Translations under genes and position numbers: made by a program
DNA from: an uncultured Bacteroidales bacterium
GTDB lineage: Bacteria > Bacteroidota > Bacteroidia > Bacteroidales > Bacteroidaceae
Direction of reading: 5' to 3'
Assembly: GCA_902787575.1 (NCBI GenBank)
Contig: CADAGX010000010.1
Coordinates: forward strand, 1 to 64,000
Length of the DNA stretch: 64,000 nt
Notes under the pieces: generated by a model
Seen by the model: only the letters and a program-made list of their open reading frames with translations
What the model was told of the DNA's origin: nothing
Databases searched by the model: none
Shown here: piece after piece, positions 6,784 to 58,750 of the stretch
Layout: every line of letters starts with the position of its first letter
Numbering within the stretch: position 1 is the stretch's first letter

Positions 6784-6861
6784 TGCCACGTGTCGCATTG
6801 CGTGATGCGACGCGTGGTATCGAGTGATGCGACGCGTGAAAAATTTTTTTCCACGTGTGGC
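6784..6861. repeat. 22-bp periodic intergenic repeat array (locus A)
   Basis: Three full units and a partial one start at 6784, 6806, 6828 and 6850, exactly 22 bp apart. Cores: CCACGTGTCGCA, GCGACGCGTGG, GCGACGCGTG, CCACGTGTGGC. Units 1 and 2 are inverted to each other and can form a 12-bp stem (6786-6797 with 6806-6817, one G-T pair). On the minus strand this stem is followed by CAATTTTTG. It may therefore also terminate the long operon whose last stop is at 6864. It lies between that stop and the AraC promoter. Confidence 0.8.
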
Positions 6862-6863
6862 TT

Positions 6864-9788
6864 TTATCGGCACAGCACTTTGCGCACCGAGCCGTCTGCC
6901 TTGCGGACAATCGTTATGCCGTGTTGCGGCGCAGAAAGCTGCTGTCCGGTGGGCGAAAAGTAGCTCTCGCAAGCTTCGTCGTGGAGCGTCGCAGAGGTGA
7001 TGCCAAGCGGCTTGCCGTCGGCATCGAGGTACGAGACGACGGCTTTGACGAGGCTCTTTGTACCAGTGTAAGTGAAGTAGGCCGTCAAACCATCTAGGGT
7101 ACTCGAAGTTCCGCCGCGCTGTATGTTGGAATTTGCATTGACAACGCCATAGAGACCGCCCATCGTTTTGGCCGGTGTGTAGTTACACGTCATTGACCAG
7201 TCGCCTTGGCTGACGGTGGTTTCGGCTTCGGCAGCTACGTCCTTGGCTGCAAAAATCGGATCTGCCAGCGGTGCTGACAAATGTAACACGTATGGCGTGT
7301 TGGGTTCGATGCGTCCGTCCTCTACTTTCTGGAAGAAGAGCGTGTAGCCGTCGCGCTGGTTCCACGTCGTCTGACGCAGAGTGGCAACCCAGTCGCCTGC
7401 GTCCGTCCGTCCGGTGAGTTCGGCCACGGTGGTGCTGAACGGCAGCGAGAGGGTGCTGAAACCTTGTTTGAAGGTGCGCAACACGGTAACCGACGGGTAG
7501 GAGCGTGCTACGTATTCTGTGGTGCTTGTGGCGCTGAGTGTGAGACCTTTCTGCGCAAAGATGGCGTACAACACTTTCTGCGTGGTGGAGCCGGGCGTGC
7601 CGTTGGTGAGTGTGACTACGTGCGGATTGGCCGTAGATTCGTATTCGGTGGCCTCGGCTGTCGTGCCCCAGCCCAGAAATTCGTAGCCTTCCTCGGCCGT
7701 GGCGGTAAATACGGCCTTAGATTGTCCCGTTGCGGCATCTGGTTTTCCTTGTACGACGGATTCGGACAGATTTACCGTGGCCGAGCCCATCGCTGCGTCG
7801 GACGAATGTACCTGTGCTTCGAAATAGAACATCGGCGCGAAGTATGCTTTCAGACTTGCCGTGAAGGGATGGGCTGCATCCTCTGTGTCGTAGCTGTAGT
7901 TCTCCCACTTCTCGGTGGTGTTGGCCGACACGAATTCGTCGGTATCCGTGCGCCGCCATTCCAAGAATACGTATCCCGGCTCAGCTTCGGCCTTGAAGAA
8001 CGCCGTCGCAGTGGCCGACAGCGCAGTTGTGAGCCCGCTGTTCGTGGCGTCGCTGCTTTGTGTGGCTGCGTCGTAAGAGGTGAAAGATGCAAAAGCTTGG
8101 CCGCCACTGCTGTGTAGCGCCTCAGCCCGCGTGTAATACGTCGTTTGCGTTGTGCCGGACAGCGCGAGGGAGAGGTCGTCGTGCGAGCCGTTCGGGTCGC
8201 TGACGGTCAGCGTAGCTGTATGCTCGCCCGCGAGATTGTTGAGATAAGTCACGGTAATGGTTTCCTCGCCCATGCGGTCTCCTCCGGTGGAGGTGAGTGT
8301 TTGCGGCGCAACTGCGAAAATTTCGCTCGAAGACGTGAGCGTTACGCCGAAGCCTGCGTTACAGTGCGAGACAACAAACGTTTGCGTGGCCACACTCTCA
8401 CCTTTTGTATTTCTGCCAAAGGCAAGCGAATTTTTGCTTATCCTAAGATATCTGCGCTCTGTGATATTGATATTTTTGAAGTAGCCACCGAAATTTCCGC
8501 TGTACGTAAGGCGCACATATCGCACCGCAACATCCGTTATCTCCACATCCGCCGAGCCGCTGCCGCTCGTCGACGACCATATTTCAGTCCAATTGCTTCC
8601 GTCGGCACTTACTTTCGCATTCCAGCCAACGCCGGTTGCAGCCCCTGACGTGCGCTCGAAGTCAAACTTCAGGCGGTCTGGAATTCCCTCAAAGACAATT
8701 TCGGCCGTTTTGTCGTCCCAATTAAAGCCGCCGCCGCCATCGCCCAAGCGGATGCCGCCGTCATCCCAGGCGTAAGAGCCCGAAATGCTGCGCACTAACG
8801 TGGCTTGGTTGGATTCTACAATCGCCAGCGGCAAATGATTCTGCGCCGTCGTGACATTGACGGTGAAAGTTTCGGATTTGGCATTCCAATCCTCGTTCCC
8901 CTCTTGCTGGACGGAAAATACCACAGTTCCTTCCTTGTCGAAGAAAGCGAGTTTCCCGTCTTCGACCTTACCGATTGTCTCGTCGCTGCTGGTGATTGTG
9001 TAGGGGCATTCGTTGTTTGTGGTAGAGAAGAAGTCGGAATACGAATGATTCGTGTAGGCGTTTCTCACATTCCACGTGAAAGTTGGTGTTCCTTTGTCGG
9101 CCGCCGTGCCGGAAACCGTGAATTCTGTGGTGGCGCCTGCCATGCTGAGTGTTACTGTGCCTGATTGTGTGCCGGGCTGAGTGGGCGAGAAATTAATCGT
9201 CACGTCGGCCTCTCCGGTCTCGCCCATGCTACGGCTGGTGACGGAGAAGGCATTGTTGGTGCAGGAGCCAGTTAATGTCTGGTCGTATGTGGTATTGTTG
9301 TACGCGACGCGTATCGTGGCGGAAATTGTCTTTCCCACCTTCACTTCGCCCACATCGAGCGTCGGGGACACGCCGTCGGCCAGCGAAAGCGTAGTGGCGC
9401 GCGTAACTTTTATGTCTTTGTAGGATTTTTTAAGCGTGGCGCCAAATTTCGTAACAAAGCGAATATGCGTGACGTTGGCTGCAATATTGTAGCTGAATGA
9501 CTGGAAACTGGTGCTGAGAGACGGGCTATCAAGATCGGTCCAGTTGGTTCCGTCGGTCGACGCCTGTGCGTAGAAATTGCTGACTGCAAGTCTGCTGCTT
9601 TTCTTGGCTTGGAAAGTGAGCGTGGCACCCGGGCCGGAGAGAGCAAACGGCTGTCCGTCCTCGATTGTGGAGAGCGAATATTCCGTTGCGACATTCAGTA
9701 CGTAGGATGTCGTGGCGGCCCATAGCGTGTGGCTCGGCAGGCAAGCCAGGATGAGTAGGATGAGAAAGCTGTATTTCGTTCTTTGCAT
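6864..9788 (-). CDS. large secreted surface protein with Ig-like and InlB-type repeats
   Basis: 974 residues, signal peptide to about residue 24 (SHTLWA-A). Following are a discoidin-like beta-sandwich (about 25-130), an ASPM/SPD-2/Hydin-like Ig module (about 135-235, ending AGATTEFTVSGTA), another sandwich (about 330-445), a second Ig-like module (about 450-550) and two B-repeat-like modules with E-P-G-Y-x-F-L-x-W / E-E-G-Y-E-F-L-G-W (about 600-760). A beta-rich tail ends in SPTGQQLSAPQ...GSVRKVLCR, a C-terminal tail common on Prevotella exported proteins. No enzyme motif is visible. It starts 8 bases after a DUF4493-type lipoprotein gene and is the last gene of the long operon. An adhesive or matrix role is an inference. 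Confidence 0.7.
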   Translation of the reverse strand: MQRTKYSFLILLILACLPSHTLWAATTSYVLNVATEYSLSTIEDGQPFALSGPGATLTFQAKKSSRLAVSNFYAQASTDGTNWTDLDSPSLSTSFQSFSYNIAANVTHIRFVTKFGATLKKSYKDIKVTRATTLSLADGVSPTLDVGEVKVGKTISATIRVAYNNTTYDQTLTGSCTNNAFSVTSRSMGETGEADVTINFSPTQPGTQSGTVTLSMAGATTEFTVSGTAADKGTPTFTWNVRNAYTNHSYSDFFSTTNNECPYTITSSDETIGKVEDGKLAFFDKEGTVVFSVQQEGNEDWNAKSETFTVNVTTAQNHLPLAIVESNQATLVRSISGSYAWDDGGIRLGDGGGGFNWDDKTAEIVFEGIPDRLKFDFERTSGAATGVGWNAKVSADGSNWTEIWSSTSGSGSADVEITDVAVRYVRLTYSGNFGGYFKNINITERRYLRISKNSLAFGRNTKGESVATQTFVVSHCNAGFGVTLTSSSEIFAVAPQTLTSTGGDRMGEETITVTYLNNLAGEHTATLTVSDPNGSHDDLSLALSGTTQTTYYTRAEALHSSGGQAFASFTSYDAATQSSDATNSGLTTALSATATAFFKAEAEPGYVFLEWRRTDTDEFVSANTTEKWENYSYDTEDAAHPFTASLKAYFAPMFYFEAQVHSSDAAMGSATVNLSESVVQGKPDAATGQSKAVFTATAEEGYEFLGWGTTAEATEYESTANPHVVTLTNGTPGSTTQKVLYAIFAQKGLTLSATSTTEYVARSYPSVTVLRTFKQGFSTLSLPFSTTVAELTGRTDAGDWVATLRQTTWNQRDGYTLFFQKVEDGRIEPNTPYVLHLSAPLADPIFAAKDVAAEAETTVSQGDWSMTCNYTPAKTMGGLYGVVNANSNIQRGGTSSTLDGLTAYFTYTGTKSLVKAVVSYLDADGKPLGITSATLHDEACESYFSPTGQQLSAPQHGITIVRKADGSVRKVLCR

Positions 9789-9796
9789 TTTTGCTT

Positions 9797-10609
9797 TTAT
9801 TTGAAATGACGCTTCACGTCAAACGTACCATTATGTTCGCCACCCACCACCGGCAGCAAAATGCCCGTGACGGGATTTGCCTTCAGTGTGAGCGTGTAAG
9901 CGTGGCCCGCCTCCACCGTCAGACTGCCCGTGATACCACTCTCGGCTATCTCTTGTGCGTGGGAGCCGGCCTTTGCCGCTGCGTGTATCGTGTATGAAAT
10001 CTTGCCGTCCGCGGGCACTGCGAAGTAAGCTTCGTGTGCGGGGTCAGAAAGCACGGCCGTGCGTCCGTCAGCCTCGAGTGTCACGTCGGCCAAGTCGTAT
10101 AGTGCTGCGAATGATGCGTCCGTCTGGGTGGAAATCTTGGTGTTCTGCGGCGCGCCCAACGCGAGGCTTACGGATGTGTCCGCGCCTTTGGAAATCTGGA
10201 ACTGGGTCGTAGTGCCGCTGTAGAATGGCGCACCGAAACTGTTGCCTTGCGCACCTTCGGAAACGGCTTTCTTGGTGCGGACGGTAAGCGTGTAAGTTCC
10301 CACTTCGAAGACAGCCGTGCAATTTCCGTCGCCCTGCGCGATGAATTGGATAGGGTGGAGGCTGATGTCGCCACTCTCGGCGCTGGTGCCCGAGAGCAGA
10401 AATTCCAGATCGCCGATGTCCGTCAGCGGCTTTTCGGCACGCGTGGCTACGTAAACATCGGGTTCGGCCGTCAGTGCGAGGCGTATGCCACCCATTCCGA
10501 CGGATTCGGCGGGCGCTTCGTCCTGCCGGCAGCCAGCTACGACGAAGAGGCCTACGGCCAGCATCAATGTTGCCAGTTTTCTAACGAGAAGTTTTAACGC
10601 GCGCTTCAT
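9797..10609 (-). CDS. DUF4493-type surface lipoprotein (copy 8)
   Basis: 270 residues; signal peptide and lipobox VVAGC with lipid Cys at 27. A strand G-G-I-R-L-A-L is followed by A-T-R57-A, 30 residues after the Cys. The N-terminal beta-sandwich is of the DUF4493 kind (F-x-L-S-G ... G-T-Y-T-L-T-V ... A-P-F-Y-S-G-T-T-x-F-x-I). A second sandwich (about 150-260) ends with a polar tail. No catalytic motif. Spacing is 5 bases from the preceding gene and 8 to the following one. Family function is unknown. The conserved TR-A position recalls type V pilin precursors. Confidence 0.7.
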   Translation of the reverse strand: MKRALKLLVRKLATLMLAVGLFVVAGCRQDEAPAESVGMGGIRLALTAEPDVYVATRAEKPLTDIGDLEFLLSGTSAESGDISLHPIQFIAQGDGNCTAVFEVGTYTLTVRTKKAVSEGAQGNSFGAPFYSGTTTQFQISKGADTSVSLALGAPQNTKISTQTDASFAALYDLADVTLEADGRTAVLSDPAHEAYFAVPADGKISYTIHAAAKAGSHAQEIAESGITGSLTVEAGHAYTLTLKANPVTGILLPVVGGEHNGTFDVKRHFK

Positions 10610-10614
10610 CTTCT

Positions 10615-11391
10615 TTATCCGTTGATTACTTCGCCCGACCCGCCGTCGACTGTGATATCTACGATATCATTCTCGAAAGTATCGTCGTAACTAATGGAAA
10701 GATTCACCTTGCCGTTGCTGTTGAGCATGACATGAAGAGTTTTTTGCGTGCCGTCTGTGCCAAGTGTGACGGTGCCTTCGTAACGTTTCGCCAGACCGTT
10801 GAAACTATAAGTGAGGACGTATGCCACGCTGGCTCCCGCCTCGTAGTATGCATACTTGTCGGCCGTGGCAGCGTTAAAGACAAGGCCGCCGTCCACACCG
10901 CCCTTGCTGACAGTGAGCGTGTAGCCCTCTGCCGTGGAGGCAAACGAGGCGTCGAAGACAACACCCAGACGTGCATTGTCGGCTGTGCCGCACGCCACAG
11001 CCACCGTGGCTGTGCGTCCTTTCTCCACAGCCACCGTGTTGCTGCCGTTGTACCACGCTTCGCCCCATCCGCTGTTGGCTGTCAGCGCATCGGAAAGTGA
11101 GGCAAAGTTGGAGACTTCCACCGTGTAGGTTGTATTGGCGAGGAAGGCCTGATTGGCCAGTTCGGCAGCCGTGCCGCTGAATTTCTCGGCCTGATCGGCA
11201 TCCTTCACCGTGACGTTCCAGGCGTCCACATCTGTGACAGACCGCTCGGCACGCGTCACCACCTCGGTTGTCACGCCTTCGAGTGCTATGTATCCCACGC
11301 CTTCCTCGGGCGAAATGGCTTCGCCGGCGGTGCATGCGGCCAGACAAATCGTCGCTCCCAAGGTGCAGAAAGAAAGAATTCGGTGCTTCAT
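10615..11391 (-). CDS. DUF4493-type surface lipoprotein (copy 7)
   Basis: 258 residues; lipobox LAAC with Cys20 and VV-T-R47-A, 27 residues after it. The first sandwich has W-N-V-T-V-K-D ... T-Y-T-V-E-V ... W-Y-N-G-S-N-T-V-A-V-E-K-G. The second has G-Y-T-L-T-V-S-K-G and ends with I-S-Y-D-D-T-F-E-N-D-I-V-D-I-T-V-D, a C-terminal strand pair shared with the 11428-12273 protein. The paralogue relationship is visible from this tail, the lipobox/TR spacing and the A-x-x-Y-x-G element. Function unknown; gap of 36 bases to the preceding gene and 5 to the following gene. Confidence 0.7.
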   Translation of the reverse strand: MKHRILSFCTLGATICLAACTAGEAISPEEGVGYIALEGVTTEVVTRAERSVTDVDAWNVTVKDADQAEKFSGTAAELANQAFLANTTYTVEVSNFASLSDALTANSGWGEAWYNGSNTVAVEKGRTATVAVACGTADNARLGVVFDASFASTAEGYTLTVSKGGVDGGLVFNAATADKYAYYEAGASVAYVLTYSFNGLAKRYEGTVTLGTDGTQKTLHVMLNSNGKVNLSISYDDTFENDIVDITVDGGSGEVING

Positions 11392-11427
11392 ATCGTATCC
11401 TTTAAAAGGTCATTTTTCGGTTCTTGC

Positions 11428-12273
11428 TCAGTCGAGGTCCACTATCACGTCTTCGGTGTCGAGGCTGAACGTGTCGTCTATCGTCACTTCAACGCCCAAA
11501 TGCCCGATTTCATCGGCAGGTTTCATGTTGATGCGGCTCTTTTTTGCTTTCGTAAGTGTCATCGTGCCGCTCTGAGACACGTTAGTAGTCCCTGTGGCCT
11601 CAATATGGTATGTTACGGTTCGTGTTTCGTCGGCTCCGACGTTGAAATAAGCCGTTCTTCCCTCGCGAATGTTATTTCCGTCGCTGTAGCCGCCAGTTTC
11701 GCTGTCGAAGACAATCGTTCTGTCGCCGTCGACAATCGTCAAACTATACGTTGTATAGTTGCTGATGAACGCCTCGTAGAAAACCACTTCCATGCCGGCG
11801 TTCACTACCGAGCATCCCACGTCCACTTTGGTGGTTTGTCCCGCTTTTATGGCGAATGAGGCGGACGTTCCGGCAAAGTGGCGCTGTCCCCAGCCTTCGT
11901 TGGCCGTCTCGGCTTCCGCGTCGGAACAATTCTCGGCCTTCACCGTATATCCGTAGCCGGCCGAGAGACTGGAGTTAAGATCTTTCAGCCTCACCGTTTC
12001 GCGCACCACATCGCTGCCCTTGAATATCGTAACGAGGAAGTTGTCGGCCTCTTCCTTCGTGATGACGGTTGTGGTGGCACGTGTGGCGGCTCGCGTCAGC
12101 GCTATCTCGAGTGTACCCATTGCTTCGTCGTCTGGCGTCGGAGCGATCTCAACATCCTCGCTCAGCGAGCACGCGGCAAACAGCGGCAGCAGCAGGAGCC
12201 AACTGATCCACTGCACGAGGCGCGTGCCGTTGCGACGTGTGGTTTTGAAATTATGACGTGTGGTTTGCATCAT
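11428..12273 (-). CDS. DUF4493-type surface lipoprotein (copy 6), start inside a repeat array
   Basis: 281 residues. The first 18 or so residues (Q-T-T-R-H-N-F-K-T-T-R-R-N-G-T-R) are rich in Arg and Thr and are encoded by two units of the 22-bp repeat family. A hydrophobic stretch W-I-S-W-L-L-L-L-P-L-F-A-A-C and the lipid Cys35 follow. T-R61 and T-R65 lie 26 and 30 residues after it. The body is a two-sandwich DUF4493-type protein with Y-T-V-K-A-E ... H-F-A-G-T-S-A-S-F-A-I. It ends V-T-I-D-D-T-F-S-L-D-T-E-D-V-I-V-D. No other ATG lies between the repeat and the lipobox, so the array appears to have become coding. A GTG at residue 20 is a possible alternative start. Confidence 0.68.
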   Translation of the reverse strand: MMQTTRHNFKTTRRNGTRLVQWISWLLLLPLFAACSLSEDVEIAPTPDDEAMGTLEIALTRAATRATTTVITKEEADNFLVTIFKGSDVVRETVRLKDLNSSLSAGYGYTVKAENCSDAEAETANEGWGQRHFAGTSASFAIKAGQTTKVDVGCSVVNAGMEVVFYEAFISNYTTYSLTIVDGDRTIVFDSETGGYSDGNNIREGRTAYFNVGADETRTVTYHIEATGTTNVSQSGTMTLTKAKKSRINMKPADEIGHLGVEVTIDDTFSLDTEDVIVDLD

Positions 12274-12284
12274 TTCTGCGTGTG
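12231..12284. repeat. 22-bp repeat array overlapping a lipoprotein start (locus F)
   Basis: Units start at 12231 (GCGACGTGTGGTTTT), 12253 (ATGACGTGTGGTTTG) and 12275 (TCTGCGTGTGGG), 22 bp apart, with the same GACGTGTGG core as the intergenic arrays. The first two units lie within the first 15 codons of the minus-strand lipoprotein gene that starts at 12273. The third fills the 18-base gap before the stop of the preceding gene. Confidence 0.7.
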
Positions 12285-12291
12285 GGAATTG

Positions 12292-13014
12292 TTATATCTT
12301 GATGTCGTTGTCGTCCGTCTCCATGTTGTCTGTAATTTCTATGTCCACGCCTCCCGTGGTGGCAGCTGAGGCATAGTCATAATGCACCGTGAATAATTTT
12401 CCGCGCTCCACCTCGGGGAACAGGATGGCAGAGTGCGAATGTGTATTTCCATCGGTGTTTGTGGCACGTAGCGAGTATGTGAATCCACCGTCTGCCACGT
12501 CGAAATATGCTTTTTCGCCTTCTGTAACCGTGATCTGACGGCCGCCGCTGGCAAGTGTGAACGTGTAGCTGCTGAAAAGCGTGCCGAAGGTTTCGGGCAG
12601 ACGAAGTGTGGCAGCATAATTTGTCATGGGCACTTCCATGACCAGATTCAGCTGCGCGTCGGGCTGCATGGTGATGAGTGTGTCGGCGTAATAGCAGCCA
12701 GCTCCCTTTCCGCCGTTCTGCGTCTTCCACGACGACTGGTTGTCGGTGTAGGCTCGCACGGTGAATTGGCCCACTTCGAGCACTATTTTGGCCGGCACCT
12801 CGCCTGCTGCATACTGTTCCAACACGTTGCCGTGCGAATCCAATATGGTCACAGCCAAATCGCTGTCGGCCGAGCGCGTGGCCATCTTGGGCAGTCCGGC
12901 TCGATACAACTCGAGGCAAAGCTGTCCACGACCTTCGAAAACGGCCATTTCATCGTGCTGGCACGAGGCAAACGTGAGCAGACAAACTATATATATATAT
13001 AAGGTATGCTTCAT
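12292..13014 (-). CDS. short DUF4493-type surface lipoprotein (copy 5)
   Basis: 240 residues from ATG 13014, which overlaps the upstream stop by four bases (ATGA). A longer in-frame start at 13086 lies inside the preceding gene and lacks a signal peptide. Lipobox F-A-S-C, Cys18; A-T-R47-S 29 residues later. The first sandwich has D-L-A-V-T-I-L-D-S-H-G-N ... G-Q-F-T-V-R-A-Y, then a Y-Y-A-D-T-L element. The second has F-S-S-Y-T-F-T-L-A-S-G-G-R. It ends with acidic V-D-I-E-I-T-D-N-M-E-T-D. The signal-peptide codons contain a (TA)7 tract. Function unknown; translation is coupled to the preceding gene. Confidence 0.7.
   Translation of the reverse strand: MKHTLYIYIVCLLTFASCQHDEMAVFEGRGQLCLELYRAGLPKMATRSADSDLAVTILDSHGNVLEQYAAGEVPAKIVLEVGQFTVRAYTDNQSSWKTQNGGKGAGCYYADTLITMQPDAQLNLVMEVPMTNYAATLRLPETFGTLFSSYTFTLASGGRQITVTEGEKAYFDVADGGFTYSLRATNTDGNTHSHSAILFPEVERGKLFTVHYDYASAATTGGVDIEITDNMETDDNDIKI
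12988..13001. repeat. (TA)7 tract within signal-peptide codons
   Basis: Fourteen bases of alternating T and A at codons 5-9 of the 12292-13014 gene, encoding Leu-Tyr-Ile-Tyr-Ile. A gain or loss of one unit would shift the frame and switch the gene off. Seven units is short for efficient slippage. Confidence 0.6.
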
Positions 13015-20846: not shown

Positions 20847-21689
20847 TTAGATCCACGTTACGGGTACTTCGATATTTATGGGCTTGTCGTTCGTACTTTC
20901 GTCAATGACGATGATGATGCTCAGACCGCCCTCCGTAGACGGAGTGTAGTTAGGTTTCACTCTCAGCTTGTATGCTTTGTTGCGTTGCAACTGGAAGGAA
21001 CCCGTCACTTCGGCCTCGGTACTCTTGGTTCCGTCGGCCAGTTTTGTAGCATAGTCCTCTTTGGCATTGAGGTGAATGGTATATGTTACCGTTTCGCCTG
21101 CAGCGTCGAGTGCCACATAATAGGGTGCGGTATCTTCCTTGCCCCACGTCACGTTGGTTCCTGTCAACGCTGTGGTGCCGGTAAAGCGCAGGTAGTATTC
21201 GTCGTAGTAAGTGCTCATCTCTGCGTCGAACTCAGCAGAAATCTTTCCGCACGTCGGTGTGCAATTCACACTCGTAGAGATGGTTTTACCAGCTTCGATG
21301 GAGAAAGTGTTTTCTCCGCTCACGTGGAAATCGTCGCGCGATGCGGGACGTTCTTCGCCAAAAGAGGCCAGAATGGTGTAAGAGCCCAGGTCGAGCTCAA
21401 GCGGAAGGCGTCCCAGCAACGTTTCATACGTGCCTTCGAACTTCTTGTTTCCTTTCTGATCCAAAATCTGGACGTTGTAGTTGTCGAAAACCTGATACGA
21501 GGCTTCGTTTACAGCACGTGTCGCGGCCTGGAAACTCACGTCAGACGACAGATTCAACGTCATCTTTCCTTTTCCCTCGGCGTTCAGCGGGCCGTCTGTT
21601 CCCAGTGGACTGTCTTGCTCCAGCGAGCAGGAAGCAGCAAACGCACCGAGCAAAAGAGATGCGCTTAGCATCATTGCTTTTGTTTTCAT
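20847..21689 (-). CDS. DUF4493-type surface lipoprotein (copy 1), first gene of the operon
   Basis: 280 residues from the ATG at 21689; a TTG four codons upstream is less likely. Lipobox F-A-A-S-C, Cys21; A-A-T-R58-A 37 residues later, the longest spacing of the set. Elements: Y-N-V-Q-I-L-D-Q-K-G-N ... G-S-Y-T-I-L-A-S-F ... D-F-H-V-S-G-E-N-T-F-S-I-E-A-G-K, with a cysteine pair (C-T-P-T-C). A second sandwich with Y-Y-L-R-F-T-G follows, ending I-I-V-I-D-E-S-T-N. It is the promoter-proximal gene of the surface block. If the block encodes a polymer, the first gene would be a reasonable major-subunit candidate. Function unproven. Confidence 0.72.
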   Translation of the reverse strand: MKTKAMMLSASLLLGAFAASCSLEQDSPLGTDGPLNAEGKGKMTLNLSSDVSFQAATRAVNEASYQVFDNYNVQILDQKGNKKFEGTYETLLGRLPLELDLGSYTILASFGEERPASRDDFHVSGENTFSIEAGKTISTSVNCTPTCGKISAEFDAEMSTYYDEYYLRFTGTTALTGTNVTWGKEDTAPYYVALDAAGETVTYTIHLNAKEDYATKLADGTKSTEAEVTGSFQLQRNKAYKLRVKPNYTPSTEGGLSIIIVIDESTNDKPINIEVPVTWI

Positions 21690-22076: not shown

Positions 22077-22164
22077 CTACACGTGGCAACACAAAAAACT
22101 ACACGTGGTTTTCGTTCACGCCACGTGTAGTTTTTGGATTTGCTGCACGTAGCATCAGACGTTG
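22077..22164. repeat. 22-bp periodic intergenic repeat array (locus B)
   Basis: Four units start at 22077, 22099, 22121 and 22143 with cores CTACACGTGGC, CTACACGTGG, CCACGTGTAG (inverted) and CTGCACGTAGC; a partial CTACATA follows at 22165. The spacing is exactly 22 bp. It lies between the cyclophilin stop and the surface-operon promoter region. Confidence 0.8.
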
Positions 22165-40361: not shown

Positions 40362-40411
40362 CAGTGAACAACGCCCGTTTCCGATCCACTGCCGCAAGTG
40401 GGAATTTTAAA

Positions 40412-40515
40412 ACGACGTGTGGCAATCGGAAATACGACGTGTGGCAATGAGAAATGCGACGTGTGGCAATCGGAAATGCGACGTGTGGCAATGAGAGAAA
40501 CCACGTGTGGCATTT
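40412..40515 (+). repeat. 22-bp periodic repeat array in the gmd leader (locus C)
   Basis: Five units start at 40412, 40434, 40456, 40478 and 40500/40501. The first four are nearly identical (core GACGTGTGGCAAT, then alternating CGGAAAT and GAGAAAT). The last ends CCACGTGTGGCATTTG. The period is 22 bp (23 once). This is the best-preserved array of the window and lies between the predicted gmd promoter and its start codon. Confidence 0.85.
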
Positions 40516-40637: not shown

Positions 40638-41735
40638 ATGGCAAAAGTGGCACTTATCACGGGCATAACCGGACAGGACGGCTCGTTTCTGGCCGAGTTC
40701 CTTATCGAGAAGGGATACGAGGTACACGGCATACTGCGCCGTAGCAGTTCTTTCAACACGGGTCGCATCGAGCATTTGTACTTAGACGAGTGGGTGCGCG
40801 ACATGAAGAAACGCCGGTTGGTGAACTTGCATTGGGGCGACATGACGGACAGCAGTTCGCTCATCCGTATCATCATGGAGACAAAACCCGATGAGATATA
40901 CAATCTGGCGGCGCAGAGCCACGTGAAAGTGAGCTTCGATGTGCCTGAATTCACGGCCGATGCCGACGCCATGGGCGTGCTGCGGCTGCTGGAGGCCGTG
41001 CGGATTGTCGGGCTTGCCAAGTCGTGCCGCATTTATCAGGCTTCCACATCCGAGTTGTATGGCATGGTGCAGGAAATCCCACAGAAGGAAACGACTCCGT
41101 TCTACCCACGCAGCCCCTACGGCGTGGCTAAAATGTACGGATTCTGGATTATGAAGAATTACCGCGAAAGCTACGGAATGTATTGCTGCAACGGCATTCT
41201 TTTCAATCACGAGAGCGAGCGTCGCGGCGAGACCTTCGTCACGCGCAAAATTACGCTTGCTGCCGCCCGAATCGCGCAGGGGTATCAGGACAAACTATAC
41301 CTTGGGAACCTAAATTCGCTGCGCGACTGGGGGTATGCAAAGGATTACATCGAGTGTATGTGGCTCATACTGCAGCAGCCGGCACCCGACGATTTTGTTA
41401 TTGCCACGGGCCAGTATCATAGTGTTCGCGAGTTCTGTACGTTGGCCTTCAAGGAGGTGGGCATACAACTGCGCTGGGAAGGCGAGGGCGTGAACGAGAA
41501 AGGCATCGATATGGCGTCTGGCCGCGTGCTTGTGGAGGTCGATCCCAAGTATTTCCGGCCGGCAGAAGTGGACCAACTGCTTGGTGATCCCACGAAGGCC
41601 AAGCGTCAGTTGGGATGGAATCCGCAGAAGACTTCGTTCGAGGAACTTGTCAGAATTATGGTGCGTCACGACATGAAGAAAGTGCGTAAGCTACATTTCA
41701 AAGAACAGCAGGCAGAAGATGGAGAAACAGAGTAA
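40638..41735 (+). CDS. gmd: GDP-mannose 4,6-dehydratase
   Basis: 365 residues, extended SDR family. The NAD(P) loop is [10 protein letters not shown] (about 8-17), then [14 protein letters not shown]. The catalytic pair is Y161-x3-K165 in S-P-Y-G-V-A-K, with the Ser/Thr site in [19 protein letters not shown] and N-L[12 protein letters not shown] are Gmd signatures. It converts GDP-mannose to GDP-4-keto-6-deoxymannose, the substrate of the next enzyme. The gene overlaps fcl by 17 bases. Confidence 0.97.
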
Positions 41736-51012: not shown

Positions 51013-51034
51013 ATGACGCCAAAAAGATACTGCT

Positions 51035-51934: not shown

Positions 51935-52026
51935 ACAGGTGAAGGCCAAAGGAAAACGAGCGCCTCGCGTACTTCCGCCGGAAACAAAATTCCGCAGACG
52001 GATTATGATATCTGAATTAAAAGTTG

Positions 52027-52034
52027 TACCTTTG
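52027..52034 (+). promoter_or_regulatory. -7 promoter box for gpmI
   Basis: TACCTTTG, full TAnnTTTG match, 70 bases ahead of the gpmI start. A GC-rich segment (CGCGAAGCGCG, 52040-52050) just downstream could form a small leader hairpin. Confidence 0.65.
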
Positions 52035-52103
52035 CAGCCGCGAAGCGCGGACGAGGCGCGACGACACAAACAAAGGGACAAATAATTAAAAAGCATACAG
52101 AAA

Positions 52104-53618
52104 ATGGGAAAGAAAGCGCTGCTGATGATCCTCGACGGCTGGGGCATCGGCAATCATGGCAAGGGCGATGTGATTTTCAACACGCCGACTCCGTATCTTG
52201 ACGCATTGCAAAAGAACTATCCGCACTCACAATTGCTGGCCAGTGGCGAGAATGTGGGTCTTCCCGACGGTCAGATGGGAAATTCCGAGGTGGGACACCT
52301 GAACATCGGAGCGGGCAGAATCGTTTATCAGGACCTTGTAAAAATCAATCGTGCCTGTGCCGACGGAAGCATCCTGCGCAACCCCGAGGTGGTTTCGGCT
52401 TACGAATATGCAAAAGTGCACGGCAAAAGTGTTCATCTGATGGGTCTTACCAGCAACGGCGGCGTGCACAGCAGTCTGGATCATCTGTTCAAATTGGTGG
52501 ATATCTCACGCGAATATGGTATCCAGCACACGTACGTTCACTGCTTTATGGACGGCCGCGACACAGATCCGAAGAGCGGTAAGGGATTCATCGAGCAGTT
52601 GCAGGAGAAATGCGACGAGGTGCCGGGCGCAGCGATTGCCAGTGTCATCGGTCGATTCTACGCGATGGACCGCGACAAACGGTGGGAGCGAGTGAAAATA
52701 GCATACGACCTTTTGGTCTCTGCCGAAGGCAAGCAGGCAACGAATATGGCCGAGGCAGTTCAGGAAAGTTACGACGAAGGCGTGACTGACGAGTTTATCA
52801 AGCCGATAAACAACAGCACGATTGACGGAACCATCAAGGAGGGAGATGTGGTTATCTTCTTTAATTACCGCAACGACCGCGCTAAGGAACTCACCATCGT
52901 GCTGACGCAGCAGGACATGCCCGAGCAGGGAATGCACACGATACCCTTGGAATACTATTGCATGACGCCCTACGACGCATCTTTCACGGGTGTGCATATT
53001 CTTTTCCCGAAGGAAAACGTCATGAATACGCTGGGCGAGTACATCAGCAGCAAGGGCCTGAAGCAGCTTCACACGGCCGAGACGGAGAAATACGCTCACG
53101 TAACATTTTTCTTCAACGGCGGCCGCGAGCAACCGTTCGAGGGCGAGGAGCGCATACTCGTGGCAAGCCCGAAAGTGGCCACCTACGATTTGAAACCAGA
53201 GATGAGCGCCTTTGAAGTGAAGGATAAACTCGTGGCTGCCATAGGCGAAAATAAATATGACTTTATTGTCGTGAACTTTGCCAACGGCGACATGGTGGGT
53301 CACACGGGCGTTTATTCTGCCATCGAGAAAGCTGTGGCTGCTGTGGACTGCTGCGTGCATGATGTGGTGGAAGCGGCCAAAGCTGTGGGCTATGAAACCA
53401 TAATTATCGCAGATCACGGCAACGCTGACAACGCTCTGAATCCTGACGGGACACCCAATACGGCTCATTCGTTGAATCCCGTGCCGTTCATCTACGTGAC
53501 GGAAAACAAGAACGCCAAGGTGGAAGACGGTGTGCTGGCCGACGTGGCACCGAGTATCTTGCGCATCATGGGACTTCCGCAGCCCGAGGAGATGACGGGC
53601 AAGTGCCTCATCAAGTAA
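52104..53618 (+). CDS. gpmI: 2,3-bisphosphoglycerate-independent phosphoglycerate mutase
   Basis: 504 residues, alkaline-phosphatase superfamily. N-terminal metal site in L-L-M-I-L-D-G-W-G (about 6-14), the phosphorylated serine in [15 protein letters not shown] (about 59-73), H-C-F-M-D-G-R-D-T near 145 and the second metal cluster with [13 protein letters not shown] and [10 protein letters not shown] near 440. It interconverts 3- and 2-phosphoglycerate in glycolysis without a cofactor. It has its own promoter and is followed by ung after 24 bases. Confidence 0.97.
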
Positions 53619-53642
53619 GGGCGCCTGTCGTCTGTTTGCCTT

Positions 53643-54305
53643 ATGGACGTGAAGATTGAGCCTTCGTGGGGAAAGTTGCTGGCCGCCGAGTTCGAGAAGC
53701 CATATTTTGCAGAACTCGTGAATTTTGTGCGACAGGAATATTCGGCGGGCGTGTGCTATCCTCCCGGCTCGCTCATCTTCAATGCTTTCTGGCAGACGCC
53801 GTTCGAAAGAGTGCGTGCTGTCATTCTTGGTCAGGACCCGTATCATGGGCCGGGGCAGGCGCACGGACTTTGTTTTTCGGTGCGCGACGGGGTGGAATTT
53901 CCGCCGTCGTTGCGCAACATTTTTCAGGAGATAAAGAACGAGACGGGCGCTGAGATTCCCACTTCTGGCGACCTGACACGCTGGGCGCAGCAGGGAGTTT
54001 TCCTGCTCAACACGTGTCTGAGTGTGAGGGCCCACACGGCGTTCAGCCACTCGGGACACGGGTGGGAGACATTTACCGACGCCGTTATCCGACTTCTCTC
54101 CAGAGAGCGCGAGCACTTGGTATTCTTGCTTTGGGGTGCTCCCGCGGGCCGGAAAGCAGATTTGATAGACCGTTCGCGTCACTGCGTGCTGCAGAGTGCT
54201 CACCCGAGTCCGCTGAGCGCCTATCGTGGCTTCTTTGGGAATAATCATTTCAACCTTTGCAACCAATATCTCCAGCAGCATGGCAGCGAACCCATCACTT
54301 GGTAG
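53643..54305 (+). CDS. ung: uracil-DNA glycosylase
   Basis: 220 residues, family 1 UDG. The water-activating loop G-Q-D-P-Y-H-G (about 63-69), L-L-N-T-C-L-S-V near 120, the uracil-binding segment and the leucine-intercalation loop H-P-S-P-L-S-A (about 190-196) are all present. It removes uracil from DNA. The next gene starts one base after its stop. Confidence 0.97.
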   Translation: MDVKIEPSWGKLLAAEFEKPYFAELVNFVRQEYSAGVCYPPGSLIFNAFWQTPFERVRAVILGQDPYHGPGQAHGLCFSVRDGVEFPPSLRNIFQEIKNETGAEIPTSGDLTRWAQQGVFLLNTCLSVRAHTAFSHSGHGWETFTDAVIRLLSREREHLVFLLWGAPAGRKADLIDRSRHCVLQSAHPSPLSAYRGFFGNNHFNLCNQYLQQHGSEPITW

Positions 54306-54306
54306 C

Positions 54307-54903
54307 ATGATTGTGGTGGGCGATGTCGTCGTTCACTCAGATATCCTGACGGAATTCTTCTGTTGCAATCTTTCTGCCTGCCGTGGCGCCTGCTGCGTGG
54401 AGGGCGATGCGGGTGCACCCGTTACGTTGGACGAGGTGGCCGAGCTGGAGGAATGTCTCGACGTGGTGTGGGACGAGTTGAATGCACAGGCGCAAAGTGT
54501 CATCGACAGGCAAGGTGTGAGTTATATCGACCGCGAGGGCGATATGGTGACGAGCATCGTGCAGGGTCGCGACTGCGCTTTTGCGTGTACCGACTTAGGC
54601 AGCGGCTGTACGATGTGCGTCCTCGAGCGTGCGTTTCGTGGCGGCCGTACGCACTGGATGAAGCCCATCAGCTGCAGCCTTTATCCGATTCGCGAGAAGC
54701 GGCTCGGCGACATGGTTGGGCTGAGCTACCATCGGTGGGACATTTGCCGCGACGCTGTTCGGCTGGGGCGCGAGAAGCGCCTGCCGCTGTATCAGTTCCT
54801 CCGCGAGCCGCTTATCGCACGCTTCGGCAAGGAATGGTACGCCGAACTGGAGACGGCCGTCCGCGAAATGCGGGCGCAGGGACTGCTGCCAGAGGCGTCG
54901 TAA
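54307..54903 (+). CDS. DUF3109 cysteine-rich protein
   Basis: 198 residues from ATG 54307; an in-frame start 81 bases earlier lies within ung and is rejected. The N-terminus has F-C-C-N-L-S-A-C-R-G-A-C-C, then C-A-F-A-C, G-C-T-M-C and C-S-L-Y-P. These eight or more cysteines resemble the metal-binding (YkgJ-like) cysteine set of the DUF3109 family. R-x-x-H-W-M-K-P-I-S-C precedes the last one. The likely role is metal (Fe-S or zinc) binding; the function is unknown. It is one base after ung and probably co-transcribed with it. Confidence 0.85.
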   Translation: MIVVGDVVVHSDILTEFFCCNLSACRGACCVEGDAGAPVTLDEVAELEECLDVVWDELNAQAQSVIDRQGVSYIDREGDMVTSIVQGRDCAFACTDLGSGCTMCVLERAFRGGRTHWMKPISCSLYPIREKRLGDMVGLSYHRWDICRDAVRLGREKRLPLYQFLREPLIARFGKEWYAELETAVREMRAQGLLPEAS

Positions 54904-54905
54904 AA

Positions 54906-54985
54906 TGCGACGCGTGGCAAATGAAAATGCGACACGTCGCGTGAAGCAAAACTACACGTCGCGTGAAGCGAAACTACACGTGGCA
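54906..54985 (+). repeat. 22-bp periodic intergenic repeat array (locus D)
   Basis: Units start near 54906 (GCGACGCGTGGCA), 54928 (GCGACACGTCGCG), then two copies of CACGTCGCGTGAAGCRAAAC at 54933 and 54955, and a final CACGTGGCA at 54977, all on a 22-bp period. The last unit runs into ATTTTTTTATT, so the array may also end the ung-DUF3109 transcript. It sits 3 bases after the DUF3109 stop. Confidence 0.8.
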
Positions 54986-55055
54986 TTTTTTTATTCTTGC
55001 TGTCGCATTCTCAGAAGTGCGTGCAGTTTTTTCAGAAACGAAAGGAGACAGGTGA

Positions 55056-55805
55056 ATGACTGACACTTGGTTGGGACGTATACGACGTGCCGCAGGCGGA
55101 ATTCTCACGGCTGTGCGCATGGGTTGGTGGCTGATAGCGCCGCTCTACGTGCTGTGTGGCTTCGCATCGTGGCGGGCCATGTATTCCGAAACTGCCAGCC
55201 CGGTGCTCGCGGATGCCCTCGTCCTTATTTTTCTGCTGCTCTTGGTTCTCTACATTGTGGCGCAAGTCTGTCTTTTTCGGGCCGAGAAGGTTTGGCAATT
55301 CTTCCTGTCGCTGGCCGTGGGTGTGCTGGTGGTTTTGCCGACGACACTCTTTGTAAGTGCGGCAGGCAGGGCAATGCCCGACAATTTTGGCAAGCAGCAT
55401 CCCATCCCCGAAGGGCTGGCAACCGTCAAGCCCGCGCCTCAGGACAGCATTTTGCCGGTTGATTCTGCCAACGCCGACACGTACCTTCAACTCTACCGCA
55501 CCGGCGTGGGCGGGCAGTATGCCTATTCTTTTTATTATCCAGCCCTGCCCGAAGGCGAAATCTACCTGCAGTGCTACGAGGCTGTGACCAATGAAAAACT
55601 TTCTTCCATGCGAAGAAAGACGCGATGCCACGTGTCGCGAACCACCCGCTTTGGCTGTGTCGTGGAGAAAAAGAAGTTTCTGAATGTGGACGGCGACCCG
55701 TGCGATTTCTATGCGGTACGCGTGGAAGTGTGGCACCGCGACCGTTGGAATCGGAAAACCAAACTGACGGAAAAGATTTACGTCATGGACGGCTGGACGT
55801 TCTGA
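55056..55805 (+). CDS. membrane protein of unknown function
   Basis: 249 residues. Three hydrophobic segments (about 22-40, 50-71 and 78-101) are followed by a soluble C-terminal part of about 145 residues with alternating charged strands (V-E-K-K-K-F-L-N-V, Y-A-V-R-V-E-V-W-H-R-D) ending at D-G-W-T-F. The region around residues 188-198 contains K-T-R-C-H-V-S-R-T-T-R, whose codons include GCCACGTGTCGCG, a single sequence like the 22-bp repeat core. I do not recognise a family. It is preceded by repeat locus D and is convergent with waaA, six bases apart. Confidence 0.55.
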   Translation: MTDTWLGRIRRAAGGILTAVRMGWWLIAPLYVLCGFASWRAMYSETASPVLADALVLIFLLLLVLYIVAQVCLFRAEKVWQFFLSLAVGVLVVLPTTLFVSAAGRAMPDNFGKQHPIPEGLATVKPAPQDSILPVDSANADTYLQLYRTGVGGQYAYSFYYPALPEGEIYLQCYEAVTNEKLSSMRRKTRCHVSRTTRFGCVVEKKKFLNVDGDPCDFYAVRVEVWHRDRWNRKTKLTEKIYVMDGWTF

Positions 55806-55811
55806 CGTGTC

Positions 55812-57041
55812 TCAGAGTCCCAGGCTGCGGAAGATGGTGTCGGCAGCGCCTGCGTTAGACTCGATGTAGGACTTGTTGATTGCTCCGCGGCGCGTGCGCA
55901 AATCCTCGTCCTCGCGCAGATGGTCGGCTGCCGCGTTGAAGAGCGATTGTCCCGTGATTTCGAAGCAACCTCCCAGCCGCAGCATATCTTGTGCCTCGCG
56001 GAATCCTTTGTTTTTCGGACCGAAGAGCACCGGTATGCCGTACACCGCCGCTTCTGGCACGTTATGAATGCCAGCTCCGAAGCCGCCGCCCACATAGGCG
56101 AAGTCGCCGTAGCGGTAGATGCTGCTCAGCAAACCGAAGCAATCAAGTATGACACAGTCGGCGGCAGCAATGTTATCGGCGGTTGCCTGCGTATAGCGCA
56201 CCGATGGGCGCCGCAGTTTTCCTTCTATCTGCTGCAGATGCTCCTCGTTTATCACGTGAGGAGCCAGCACGAGTTTCATGTCAGCGTGGGTGTTGAAGTA
56301 CGGAATGATGAGATCCTCGTCCGGCGCCCACGTGCTGCCAGCCACGAGCACTACGTTCTTCGCTTGGCCGACAAATTTCTCCACCAGAGGCAACGGACGC
56401 GCCTGGTGGCAGATGTCAAGCACGCGGTCGAAACGCGTGTCGCCGACCACGGTAACATTATTTCGAATGCCGCGAGTGGCGAGAAGTCGAGCCGATTCCT
56501 CGTCTTGCACGAAGAAGTACTTCACAAACTTAAGCACCTGAGCGTAGTTCCAACCATACCAGCGGAAAAAAATCTTATTGCGGCGGAAGATGCTGCTGAC
56601 GCTGATAAATGGAATGTGAAAGTAGCGACACGAGAGAATGTAGTTCATCCAGAACTCATACTTGATGAAAAAAGCCATTTCCGGCCGCACAAGCCGGAAA
56701 AAGTGCACCGTGTTGATGGGCGTATCGAAGGGCAGATAACAGATAATGTCGGCACCTTCGTAATTTTTCCGCACTTCGTAGCCCGACGGCGAGAAGAAGG
56801 TAAGTAGAATCTTGAACTCGGGATGCTGCTGGCGAAAGCGGTCCATGAGCGGGCGCCCCTGTTCGAATTCGCCCAACGACGCGGCGTGGAACCAGACGTA
56901 ACGTGCCGTCGGGTCTACTTTCTCGCGCAGAATCCGGAAAGACTGCCTTTGGCCATGCATCATAGCACGCGCCTTTCTGTGGAATGGCGAGACAAGTATT
57001 ACAGCCAACTGGTAGAGGTAAATGGCAAAAGTATACAGCAT
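55812..57041 (-). CDS. waaA: 3-deoxy-D-manno-octulosonic acid (Kdo) transferase
   Basis: 409 residues. An N-terminal membrane anchor (about 4-20), the conserved W-F-H-A-A-S-L-G-E-F-E-Q with the catalytic Glu (about 50-60), and a C-terminal GT-B domain with V-A-G-S-T-W-A-P-D-E-D (about 238-248) and Y-V-G-G-G-F-G-A-G-I-H-N-V-P-E-A (about 330-345). It adds Kdo to lipid A precursor in lipopolysaccharide core synthesis at the inner membrane. Its start overlaps the gltX stop by one base (TAATG), so the two are coupled. Confidence 0.96.
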   Translation of the reverse strand: MLYTFAIYLYQLAVILVSPFHRKARAMMHGQRQSFRILREKVDPTARYVWFHAASLGEFEQGRPLMDRFRQQHPEFKILLTFFSPSGYEVRKNYEGADIICYLPFDTPINTVHFFRLVRPEMAFFIKYEFWMNYILSCRYFHIPFISVSSIFRRNKIFFRWYGWNYAQVLKFVKYFFVQDEESARLLATRGIRNNVTVVGDTRFDRVLDICHQARPLPLVEKFVGQAKNVVLVAGSTWAPDEDLIIPYFNTHADMKLVLAPHVINEEHLQQIEGKLRRPSVRYTQATADNIAAADCVILDCFGLLSSIYRYGDFAYVGGGFGAGIHNVPEAAVYGIPVLFGPKNKGFREAQDMLRLGGCFEITGQSLFNAAADHLREDEDLRTRRGAINKSYIESNAGAADTIFRSLGL

Positions 57042-58603
57042 TAGCCCAATTGTTGAATGGCGTTCTCAATGCGGCGAAGCGTCTCGTCCTTGCCAAGGAA
57101 GGCTGCCAATTCGTACATGTCGGGGCCTTGTCCCTCACCCACAAGGCAGATACGCCAAGCGTTCCAAGGTCGTATTCCGGTTTCCTCGGTCCACGGGTCT
57201 ATCTTCTGGCGCAGGCCTTCGGTGCTGAAATCTTCAGTTTCCTGCAGCTGACGCATGAATTGCTTCATTTCCTCGGCCGTCGTCTCCTTCCAGTTCTTGC
57301 GCACAAATTTATCCTCGCGGTCGAAAGCCTGCGGTGCCACGAAGAAGAAACGGCAGAGCGGCCAGAGGTCGCTGACAAAACTGACGTTGCGTTTCTTCTT
57401 GTTGCCTTCGTTGTCTGTGTATTCGATGACTTTGAGTTTCATCATCCGCACTACGTCTTCCTCCTTCTCGGGCGTCGTTTCGATGCCGTTGGCACGCAGT
57501 ATCCGGTCCAGCTCCGGCACCCACTCGGCGTCGGGACGGCTGATAAGATACTGATGATTGAACCACGCCGCTTTTATGTAGTCGAAACGTGCACCATTCC
57601 GCGAGCACTTTTCGAGGTCGAAGAGTTCGATAAGTTCGGCCATCGACAGCACTTCGCTGTGCTCATTGCCGGGATTCCATCCAAGCAAGGCCAGGAAATT
57701 CACTACGGCCTCTGGCAGATATCCTTTCTCGCGATAGCCGCTGCTTACCTCGCCCGATTTCGGGTCGTGCCACTCGAGCGGGAAAACCGGGAAGCCCAGT
57801 CTGTCGCCGTCGCGCTTGCTGAGTTTTCCATTCCCGACAGGCTTGAGCAGCAGTGGCAAGTGTGCGAAGCGCGGCATCGTGTCCGTCCAGCCGAATGCCT
57901 CGTATAGGAGCACGTGCAGCGGGGCTGACGGCAGCCATTCCTCACCACGTATCACGTGGCTGATGTCCATCAAGTGGTCGTCCACAATGTTGGCCAAATG
58001 ATACGTCGGCAGCTGGTCGGCACTCTTAAAGAGAACTTTGTCGTCCAGAATGCTGCTGTTGATGCTGACATCGCCGCGAATTAAATCGTGAACCACCACA
58101 TCGCGGCCGGGTTCCACGAGAAAGCGAACAACGTACTGCTCGCCGTCGGCTATCATCTGTTGTACCTGCGATGCGGGCAGTGTGAGGGAATTGCGCATCG
58201 TGAGGCGAGTGGACGCGTCGTACTGGAAATTCTCCACTTCGCCGCGCTTTGCTTCCAGTTCCTCGGGCGTATCGAAGGCGTAGTACGCTTTGCCGGCATC
58301 CAACAACTGCTGAACGTATTTCTGGTAAATGTCGCGCCGTTCGCTCTGACGGTACGGACCGTAATTTCCGCCGTAGCTTACTCCTTCGTCGAACTCGATG
58401 CCCAACCACTTGAAGGCTTCGATAATATATTCCTCGGCGCCGGGAACGAAGCGCGTTGAGTCAGTGTCCTCGATGCGGAACACCATATCGCCACCATGCT
58501 GGCGTGCAAAAAGATAATTGTAAAGGGCGGTCCGAACGCCGCCGATGTGCAAAGGTCCCGTTGGACTGGGTGCAAATCTCACCCGCACGCGTCTTTCTGA
58601 CAT
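57041..58603 (-). CDS. gltX: glutamyl-tRNA synthetase
   Basis: 520 residues from ATG 58603. A 53-residue extension is open upstream but runs through repeat locus E and reads as repetitive, so it is excluded. Class I motifs: H-I-G-G in [13 protein letters not shown] (HIGH, about 9-21) and K-L-S-K-R in [10 protein letters not shown] (KMSKS, about 265). The anticodon-binding C-terminal part ends near residue 520. It charges tRNA-Glu; the matching tRNA gene is at 39856. It is followed directly by waaA. Confidence 0.96.
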
Positions 58604-58624
58604 TTCTTTTTCGTTATATTTTTG

Positions 58625-58632
58625 CAAAAGTA
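58625..58632 (-). promoter_or_regulatory. -7 promoter box for gltX
   Basis: Minus strand TACTTTTG, full TAnnTTTG match, 21 bases ahead of the gltX ATG at 58603. It supports the short start. Confidence 0.6.
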
Positions 58633-58665
58633 CGATATTTTTTTCAGATAGAAGCGTCTTTTTTG

Positions 58666-58673
58666 TATTTTTG
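58666..58673 (+). promoter_or_regulatory. -7 promoter box for the 7TM-HD gene
   Basis: TATTTTTG, full TAnnTTTG match. The leader of about 100 bases up to 58780 is almost entirely repeat locus E. Confidence 0.6.
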
Positions 58674-58691
58674 CAGTGCGAAAGGGTAAAA

Positions 58692-58750
58692 ACCACGTGT
58701 GAGAATTCGCGTGCCACGTGTGGAAAATCTGTTTTCACGTGTGGCGTTTC
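58692..58750 (+). repeat. 21-22 bp periodic repeat array in the 7TM-HD leader (locus E)
   Basis: CACGTGTG cores begin at 58694, 58715 and 58736, 21 bp apart, with the extended forms CCACGTGTGAG, CCACGTGTGGAAAA and TCACGTGTGGCG. It occupies the shared divergent region between gltX and the HD-domain gene and lies downstream of the plus-strand promoter. Confidence 0.75.

Follow-up and report, generated by a model that had tools for sequence, protein, structure and literature searches.

Repetitive extragenic palindromes (REPs), which are among the closest described systems to the element reported here, are extragenic, palindromic, clustered, and species-specific in the accessible parts of their descriptions (PMC2817692, PMC3733652, and PMC6006769). 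The segments between REPs in the bacterial interspersed mosaic elements (BIMEs) of Stenotrophomonas are variable in length, as stated in the accessible part of PMC2817692. BrickBuilt, a minisatellite-type miniature inverted-repeat transposable element of Porphyromonas gingivalis, has a 23-nt unit, no spacers, and a leader and tail with terminal inverted repeats (accessible part of PMC4596501), and the TAACTGA direct repeats of Beggiatoaceae consist of a short conserved word repeated in numerous intergenic arrays (accessible part of PMC4679880). Here, we analyze arrays of a palindromic unit recurring every 21-22 bp in a 64,000-nucleotide stretch of DNA (the window) from an uncultured Bacteroidales bacterium of the Bacteroidaceae (GenBank assembly GCA_902787575.1, contig CADAGX010000010.1, positions 1 to 64,000), which is part of contig 10 of a 2.65-Mb genome in 34 contigs. 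The closest named records are metagenome-assembled genomes of uncultured Prevotellaceae/Bacteroidaceae, many of ruminant origin, and the organism is likely a Prevotella-like rumen bacterium. Six such arrays, numbered by position, lie where a first-pass annotation of the window had placed them (Table 1). Protein sites phased by helical turns are also found in iteron arrays and in plasmid centromere arrays of the ribbon-helix-helix (RHH)/ParR type, at one locus per replicon, and clustered regularly interspaced short palindromic repeats (CRISPR) are near-identical repeats with unique spacers of ~20 bp or more.

The arrays resemble iteron and ParR-type arrays in their helical phasing and differ from them in occupying many dispersed loci. 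CRISPR arrays were rejected on the basis of spacers of ~4 bp and degenerate repeats (cas genes were not searched). Like REPs and BIMEs, as far as these are described in the accessible texts, the arrays are extragenic imperfect palindromes, clustered and present in many copies, with families that are species-specific. Unlike them, they are set on a 22-bp (or 21-bp) grid with 4-bp spacers, solitary intergenic units are rare, pairing is not preserved in the family tested, and two array-bearing genomes have no detectable gene for a REP-associated tyrosine (Y1) transposase (RAYT). GTGG/GTAG, which in REPs tags one end of the palindrome, lies inside the palindrome of this genome, and is not found in the GCGTGC or CAACGTGTTG families of other genomes. 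BrickBuilt, as far as the accessible part of its description goes, is similar in its Bacteroidales host and in a tandem unit of ~22-23 bp in dispersed copies, but the sequence differs from its consensus, the 4-bp spacer is variable here, and no comparable leader or tail ends were seen at the arrays when judged by eye. The TAACTGA core is unrelated, and the strings "palindrom," "21 bp," and "22 bp" are absent from the text of PMC4679880. No described repeat of this design was found in the literature searched, most subscription journals being beyond reach, and the arrays form a class of extragenic repeats that is REP-like in kind and has a geometry not encountered there. Our preferred reading, which we hold tentatively, is that they are REP/BIME-like dispersed repeats of their own design, in which palindromes would bind homodimers and the 22-bp grid would put neighbors on one face of the helix.

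Unit architecture and constraint on spacing

The unit consists of an 18-bp imperfect palindrome and a 4-bp spacer. In 80 arrays selected for a visible dyad, the 8-bp arms around the dyad pair at 58-88% per position and the central two bases at 24%, and neighboring units agree at 0.49-0.55 in the four spacer columns versus 0.67-0.95 in the other columns. The filler between cores, initially described as varying freely, does so over ~4 bp, the core flanks being part of the palindrome. Among 122 arrays (138 found, minus 16 that are low-complexity or coding), the dyad lies above the 95% point of column-shuffled controls in 65. Strict dyad centers in sister genomes are mostly 11, 22, 33, or 44 bp apart; the same strict test yields just a few such pairs in the sample of this genome, where the palindrome is less perfect. 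The palindrome center is GT, AC, or GC, usually GT, a pattern that would result if one CpG of a perfect ACGCGT had become TpG on one strand or the other. In the sample of this genome, exact cores form 41 chains, which contain two to eight units, and unit copies inside one array are often near-identical.

When intergenic cores were considered, a distance of 21-22 bp was found for 61 of 63 neighbor pairs with the same orientation, and one of 21-23 bp for 20 of 23 inverted pairs. The 21-22-bp spacing is also seen in 18 of the 24 neighbor pairs in which at most 5 of 12 flanking bases are alike, so that core and spacing are conserved beyond simple duplication, as had been proposed. Within the window, pairs of ACGTGTGG less than 120 bp apart always share their orientation, and their distances are solely 21, 22, 44, 66, and 88 bp. 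Similarly, genome G054 has 37 pairs formed by CAACGTGTTG or its complement at distances of up to 70 bp, and every one of them is spaced by 22, 44, or 66 bp; 13 pairs are inverted, and the flanks have diverged in 19. No such order is seen for the GCGTGC hexamer alone in G066, or for ACGTGT in G187 and G186, all three of which use other words. Flanks that diverge without insertions or deletions imply that the spacing is under selection and not merely inherited.

Copy number and intergenic location

The pattern ACGTGTGG-N13..15-CGTGTGG, with cores 20-22 bp apart, has 61 matches in this genome with no strand preference (32 forward and 29 reverse) versus 0 for the reversed pattern. A core-blind scan, which measures self-similarity at periods of 10-60 bp, detected 28 segments at 22 bp, 14 at 44 bp, 5 at 21 bp, and 0-6 at every other period in 445 kb of this genome, a sample that is biased upward because 20 pieces besides the window were cut around known arrays. 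In the window, a scan at the 22-bp period detects arrays 1, 4, and 5, and arrays 2, 3, and 6 are visible through their cores alone.

A two-unit profile of 40 positions has at least 146 matches in this genome, which is a lower bound with 150 of 2579 candidates scored, and the 140 places listed group into at least 69 arrays. Because the listed matches include just three of the six window arrays, the true number of arrays is probably >100. The 445 kb contain 195 profile hits, of which 147 are in arrays (138 intergenic and 9 in called genes). The profile was seeded with a fixed core hexamer, and core conservation in these hits is thus by construction.

Position relative to genes and promoters

Pooled arrays are distributed over co-directional, convergent, and divergent gaps in numbers of 52, 34, and 21, versus 61.7, 19.7, and 25.6 expected from gap length (edge and coding cases are omitted, and a few low-complexity arrays retained). 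Convergent gaps are thus mildly preferred. Relative to promoters, defined by a Bacteroidales-type consensus with one mismatch allowed, 57 of 64 arrays are upstream, 4 beyond, and 3 overlapping, versus ~45, 5, and 14 upon random placement. In 33 further array regions, no promoter match was found by the same definition. In gaps of at least 80 bp, the genes flanking arrays present 3' ends (132) more often than 5' ends (97).

These figures bear on the possibility that the arrays are operators of one transcription regulon, which we consider improbable. A cooperative regulator would fit a conserved core spaced at two helical turns, a sugar-nucleotide gene has an array upstream, and three DUF4493 genes are next to arrays 2 and 3. 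However, the distance to the promoter is not fixed, promoters are depleted of arrays, and 3' flanks outnumber 5' flanks. Among the flanking genes tested, DUF4493 is the sole family in common.

Double-stranded DNA versus RNA hairpins

The first-pass annotation had considered it equally possible that the cores fold in RNA. On the transcribed strand of 20 arrays, G-U combinations (25) are not in excess over A-C (35), and when strand is ignored all strong arrays together have 106 G-T versus 87 A-C. Across 44 two-unit sequences from the family of this genome, the 16 pairs of the palindrome are formed in 69.6% of cells versus 70.5% in shuffles, neither pair covariation nor the retention of pairing by complementary changes that characterizes REPs was found, and the palindrome columns vary independently. 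One pair per unit, typically G-G, is unpaired in 35 of these sequences. As assessed by single-strand folding, arrays 1 (z -4.7) and 3 (z -4.95) clearly beat shuffles and array 6 does so weakly, while arrays 2, 4, and 5 fold no better than shuffles. A search of the window with Rfam at gathering score returned one tRNA and no array, and a terminator-like match (GC hairpin followed by a T-run) touches two of the six window arrays and none of the other four.

RNA hairpins are thus disfavored by the lack of covariation, the lack of a G-U bias, and the three window arrays at shuffle level, notwithstanding the good folding of arrays 1 and 3. We likewise regard intrinsic, possibly bidirectional, terminators or RNA stability hairpins as very improbable: the excess in convergent gaps, the folding of arrays 1 and 3, and the two terminator-like matches would all speak for them, but divergent gaps are hardly avoided, array 6 is between a promoter-like element and a start codon, G-U is not in excess, and four window arrays have no terminator-like match. 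The independence of the columns and the unpaired position point to a binding site rather than a hairpin, and the palindrome looks as though it is kept as double-stranded sequence, like the site of a dimer. Taken together, the lack of covariation and of G-U bias, the intergenic location, and the avoidance of promoters argue against RNA hairpins and for a protein that would read double-stranded DNA on one face.

Distribution across species and sequence turnover

In 150 genomes, its own included, the ACGTGTGG pair pattern was matched in 15: this genome, 13 others of the genus, and G119, which belongs to another family. The G119 array (L105:10380-10445), which was chosen by its core pattern match unlike the unselected outgroup pieces described below, has cores ACGTGT, ACACGT, and ACACGT at 21-bp steps with A/T-rich spacers. 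A named Bacteroidales contig, L175, has an inverted core pair at 22 bp. A strict restriction to the genus was rejected, since both occur beyond the genus sample.

The geometry was followed independently of the core. Samples cut around known arrays, which are biased upward, contain 30 period-22 segments in G027, 36 in G070, 11 in G052, and 7 in G062. In 355 kb of unselected pieces from 20 other members of the genus, 15 segments at 22 bp were detected, distributed over 8 genomes, together with 12 at 21 bp and 11 at 14 bp, which we interpret as heptad repeats. None at 22 bp was detected in 301 kb from other families of the order, a set of 20 pieces that includes the one cut around the G119 pattern match. 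On named contigs, nearer relatives have 35 segments at 22 bp versus 28 at 14 bp and 23 at 21 bp, and farther relatives have three at 22 bp; palindromic 22-bp arrays are also present on named Prevotella-like contigs. Pieces of six near-complete genus members (1.08 Mb), picked irrespective of arrays, contain 33 segments at 22 bp, at least three in each genome, some of which may be coding repeats as genes were uncalled, and in four of the six period 22 is at least 2-fold above neighboring periods. Period-22 segments are present in each of the 11 genus members that were sampled in depth, and the palindromes differ between members. Periods that are multiples of 7 (14, 21, 28, 35, 42, and 49) are also common in genus loci, and appear to constitute a class of their own, that of heptad repeats.

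The sequence of the palindrome differs between species. The two-unit profile of this genome has 0-6 matches in each of eight other genus genomes. A sister family with a GCGTGC core has 293 pair matches in G052 (146 and 147 per strand) versus 0 for the reversed pattern, and at most four in any other of 399 family genomes sampled, a set that did not include G027 and G070. With these 293 matches and the at least 69 arrays of the present genome, the original estimate of hundreds per genome is of the right order. GCGTGC families are found in G070 and G052, CCACGTGTGG-type cores with various arms in G027, G070, G052, and G062, and other cores in G054 (CAACGTGTTG), G066 (GGAGCGTGCTCC), G043 (GATGCAGCAGGCTGCATC), and G167 (ATTCCATGATGATGGAAT), and the center CGTG is common to several families. 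A dyad of at least 0.6 is found in three of six segments in G066, seven of nine in G054, and three of six in G043.

Different families can be close neighbors, as L117:1-335 contains four distinct 22-bp repeat families in succession over 335 bp, and two distinct palindrome families form directly adjoining arrays in G043 (L233:8448-8637). In G240, which is of another genus of the family, the reversed control pattern is matched 15 times, and this genome may carry its own repeat family near this spacing. One viral contig (IMGVR_UViG_3300028888_002997, L271:4865-4896) carries a pair of the GCGTGC family, in phage or host DNA, and among the viral contigs searched none matches the family of this genome.

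A possible reader of the 22-bp grid

Under our preferred reading, each array comprises two to eight imperfect palindromes of 18 bp, separated by freely varying 4-bp spacers and phased at 22 bp or, in some cases, 21 bp. A putative DNA-binding protein would read the array, with one homodimer on each palindrome. As 21-22 bp correspond to two helical turns, neighboring dimers would be on the same face of the helix, and arrays would be bound well and single sites not. Such a same-face dimeric reader is the most economical explanation for the fixed spacing, the occurrence in arrays only, and the independent columns. We infer the protein, its cooperativity, the copying of arrays, and a fast co-evolution between protein and palindrome. 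The cooperative protein on one DNA face that had been proposed at first fits the evidence at the DNA level.

That no binding protein was found counts against this reading, as do several other observations. A dyad of at least 0.6 is seen in none of four segments in G187, which has no clear dyad, in one of three in G167, and in one of five in G186. Several unrelated palindrome families coexist in G070, which is not explicable by one sequence-specific protein. Profile hits outside arrays number 48 (40 of them inside genes, near the 89% coding share) versus 15 in the shuffled control, so some single, isolated sites may be real. Distances between arrays and promoters range from tens to >1000 bases, and arrays are therefore not ordinary operators. 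Across families, there is a weak trend to compensatory change, with pairing restored in 34 of 81 double changes versus 30 of 93 in slid controls; when the phase is fitted to the same data the result is 60 versus 13-22, which is biased, and the fair version takes the phase from the first unit only. Last, ACACGT can be reached from ACGTGT via ACGCGT by two point changes, without inversion, so that inverted cores are not proof of independent origin.

The main rival is a purely selfish or mutational origin, in which a structure-specific enzyme, or replication errors with a 22-bp ruler, would amplify palindromes in tandem and disperse them, with no host reader. This origin would account for the many unrelated palindromes in one geometry, the families that differ between species, the location of arrays where disturbance is least, the near-identical copies within arrays, and the fact that array 6 is missing from nine relatives. 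It is possible yet doubtful, because the family of this genome has not retained hairpin pairing, period 22 is strongly above neighboring periods in the array-rich genomes and at least 2-fold above them in four of the six unselected ones, which slippage alone does not predict, and the spacing survives flank divergence. A dimeric reader and a selfish or mutational origin could both be true together.

As a more general proposition, which we consider possible yet doubtful, the arrays might represent a repeat class defined by geometry. This class would be present in the sampled species of the genus, patchy in Prevotella relatives, and found at least once in another family, with dozens to hundreds of intergenic arrays per genome, each genome having its own palindromes on the 21-22-bp grid, read by a rapidly diverging, polymer-forming, chromosome-organizing protein. 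If so, it would parallel, in bacteria, rapidly evolving satellite DNA and the proteins that bind it. Sequence is the usual criterion by which repeat classes are defined, whereas here spacing and mostly symmetry persist and the sequence changes from species to species. A protein that reads the grid, should there be one, would be a new organizer acting across the chromosome in gut bacteria of this group, and protein-DNA co-evolution could be tested directly on its species-specific sites. If nothing reads the grid, a copying mechanism with a 22-bp ruler would be needed, which known REP transposases do not obviously supply.

RAYT-like proteins in array-bearing genomes

This genome encodes a RAYT-like protein of 201 aa (E 9.8e-19, below the curated cut-off), and no 22-bp segment is found within ~1.3 kb of its gene. 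PF01797 was found in six of eight and six of ten genomes (overlapping sets), and NF047646 in 8 of 11 array-bearing genus members versus 9 of 12 outgroups, G070 being the sole one of the 11 above the NF047646 cut-off. G187 and G186 were matched solely by NF047646, and G167 solely by PF01797. Two array-bearing metagenome-assembled genomes, G054 (97% complete) and G052 (89%), were matched by neither profile. Weak Y1-like proteins of ~360-470 aa are scattered across the genus. A 22-bp segment is present at three of nine Y1 loci (L190, L195, and L198; 2-3 kb each) and at none of the other six, a frequency that the density of arrays might by itself account for. In L195, from G042, a ACGTGTGG array (L195:606-743) is 58 bp from a 414-aa open frame with a RAYT-like domain (L195:802-2046). 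G119, the genome of another family with the 21-bp ACGTGT array, has 12 matches to the RAYT profile.

These data bear on whether the arrays are REPs or BIMEs proper, mobilized by RAYTs, which we view as unlikely. The extragenic, palindromic, clustered, and species-specific character of the arrays is that of REPs (accessible part of PMC2817692), and the RAYT-like proteins of this genome and G070, the three Y1 loci, the array next to a gene in G042, and the matches in G119 all point in this direction. Conversely, G054 and G052 match neither Y1 profile, there is no 22-bp segment near the RAYT-like gene of this genome or at six of nine Y1 loci, so that the RAYT gene flanked by repeats that typifies REPs was not seen in these genomes, and profile matches are equally common in outgroups and array-bearing members. 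In addition, spacing in Stenotrophomonas BIMEs varies according to the accessible part of PMC2817692, whereas it is fixed here at ~4 bp. RAYTs as a general agent were rejected because PF01797 and NF047646 do not track the presence of arrays. A role for RAYTs in some families remains a lead.

The six arrays of the window and their neighbors

The spacing was initially reported as 22 bp for all arrays but the last, for which 21 bp was given. Array 6 is at 21 bp, and array 2 is also partly at 21 bp. In array 3, the orientation switches at the third unit.

Table 1. Arrays of the window, an associated promoter-like element, and their settings
Feature	Coordinates	Strand	Units	Setting
Array 1	6784..6861	+	cores ACGTGT, ACGCGT, ACGCGT, ACGTGT; spacing 22, 22, ~21 bp	gap between two minus-strand genes, adjoining the stop codon of gene 6864-9788
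Array 2	12231..12284	+	three weak units (two ACGTGT, one GCGTGT), ~21 bp apart	junction between two minus-strand DUF4493 genes; touches the 5' end of an open reading frame
Array 3	22077..22164	+	two ACACGT, inverted ACGTGT 22 bp further, then a decayed unit	upstream of gene 20847-21689, downstream of cyclophilin-type gene; both genes minus strand
Array 4	40409..40515	+	five ACGTGTGGC units, 22-bp spacing	upstream of GDP-mannose dehydratase gene (40638-41735)
Array 5	54904..54987	.	four units (one ACGCGT, three ACACGT), 22-bp spacing	begins immediately after the stop codon of gene 54307-54903
TATTTTTG, which we take to be a -7-like promoter element	58666..58673	+		upstream of array 6; Bacteroidales-type consensus
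Array 6	58688..58750	+	three ACGTGT units, 21-bp spacing	after the promoter-like element, ahead of the start codon of a 7TM-HD gene

Array 6 is absent from nine relatives in which the flanks can be aligned (9 alignable of 11 loci retrieved), and these are too diverged to reveal a target-site duplication. At the position of TATTTTTG, the nine aligned relatives have a similar word, TATNTTT/TATTTTC. Three DUF4493 genes adjoin arrays 2 and 3, two of them adjacent (window:11428-13014) and one apart (window:20847-21689).

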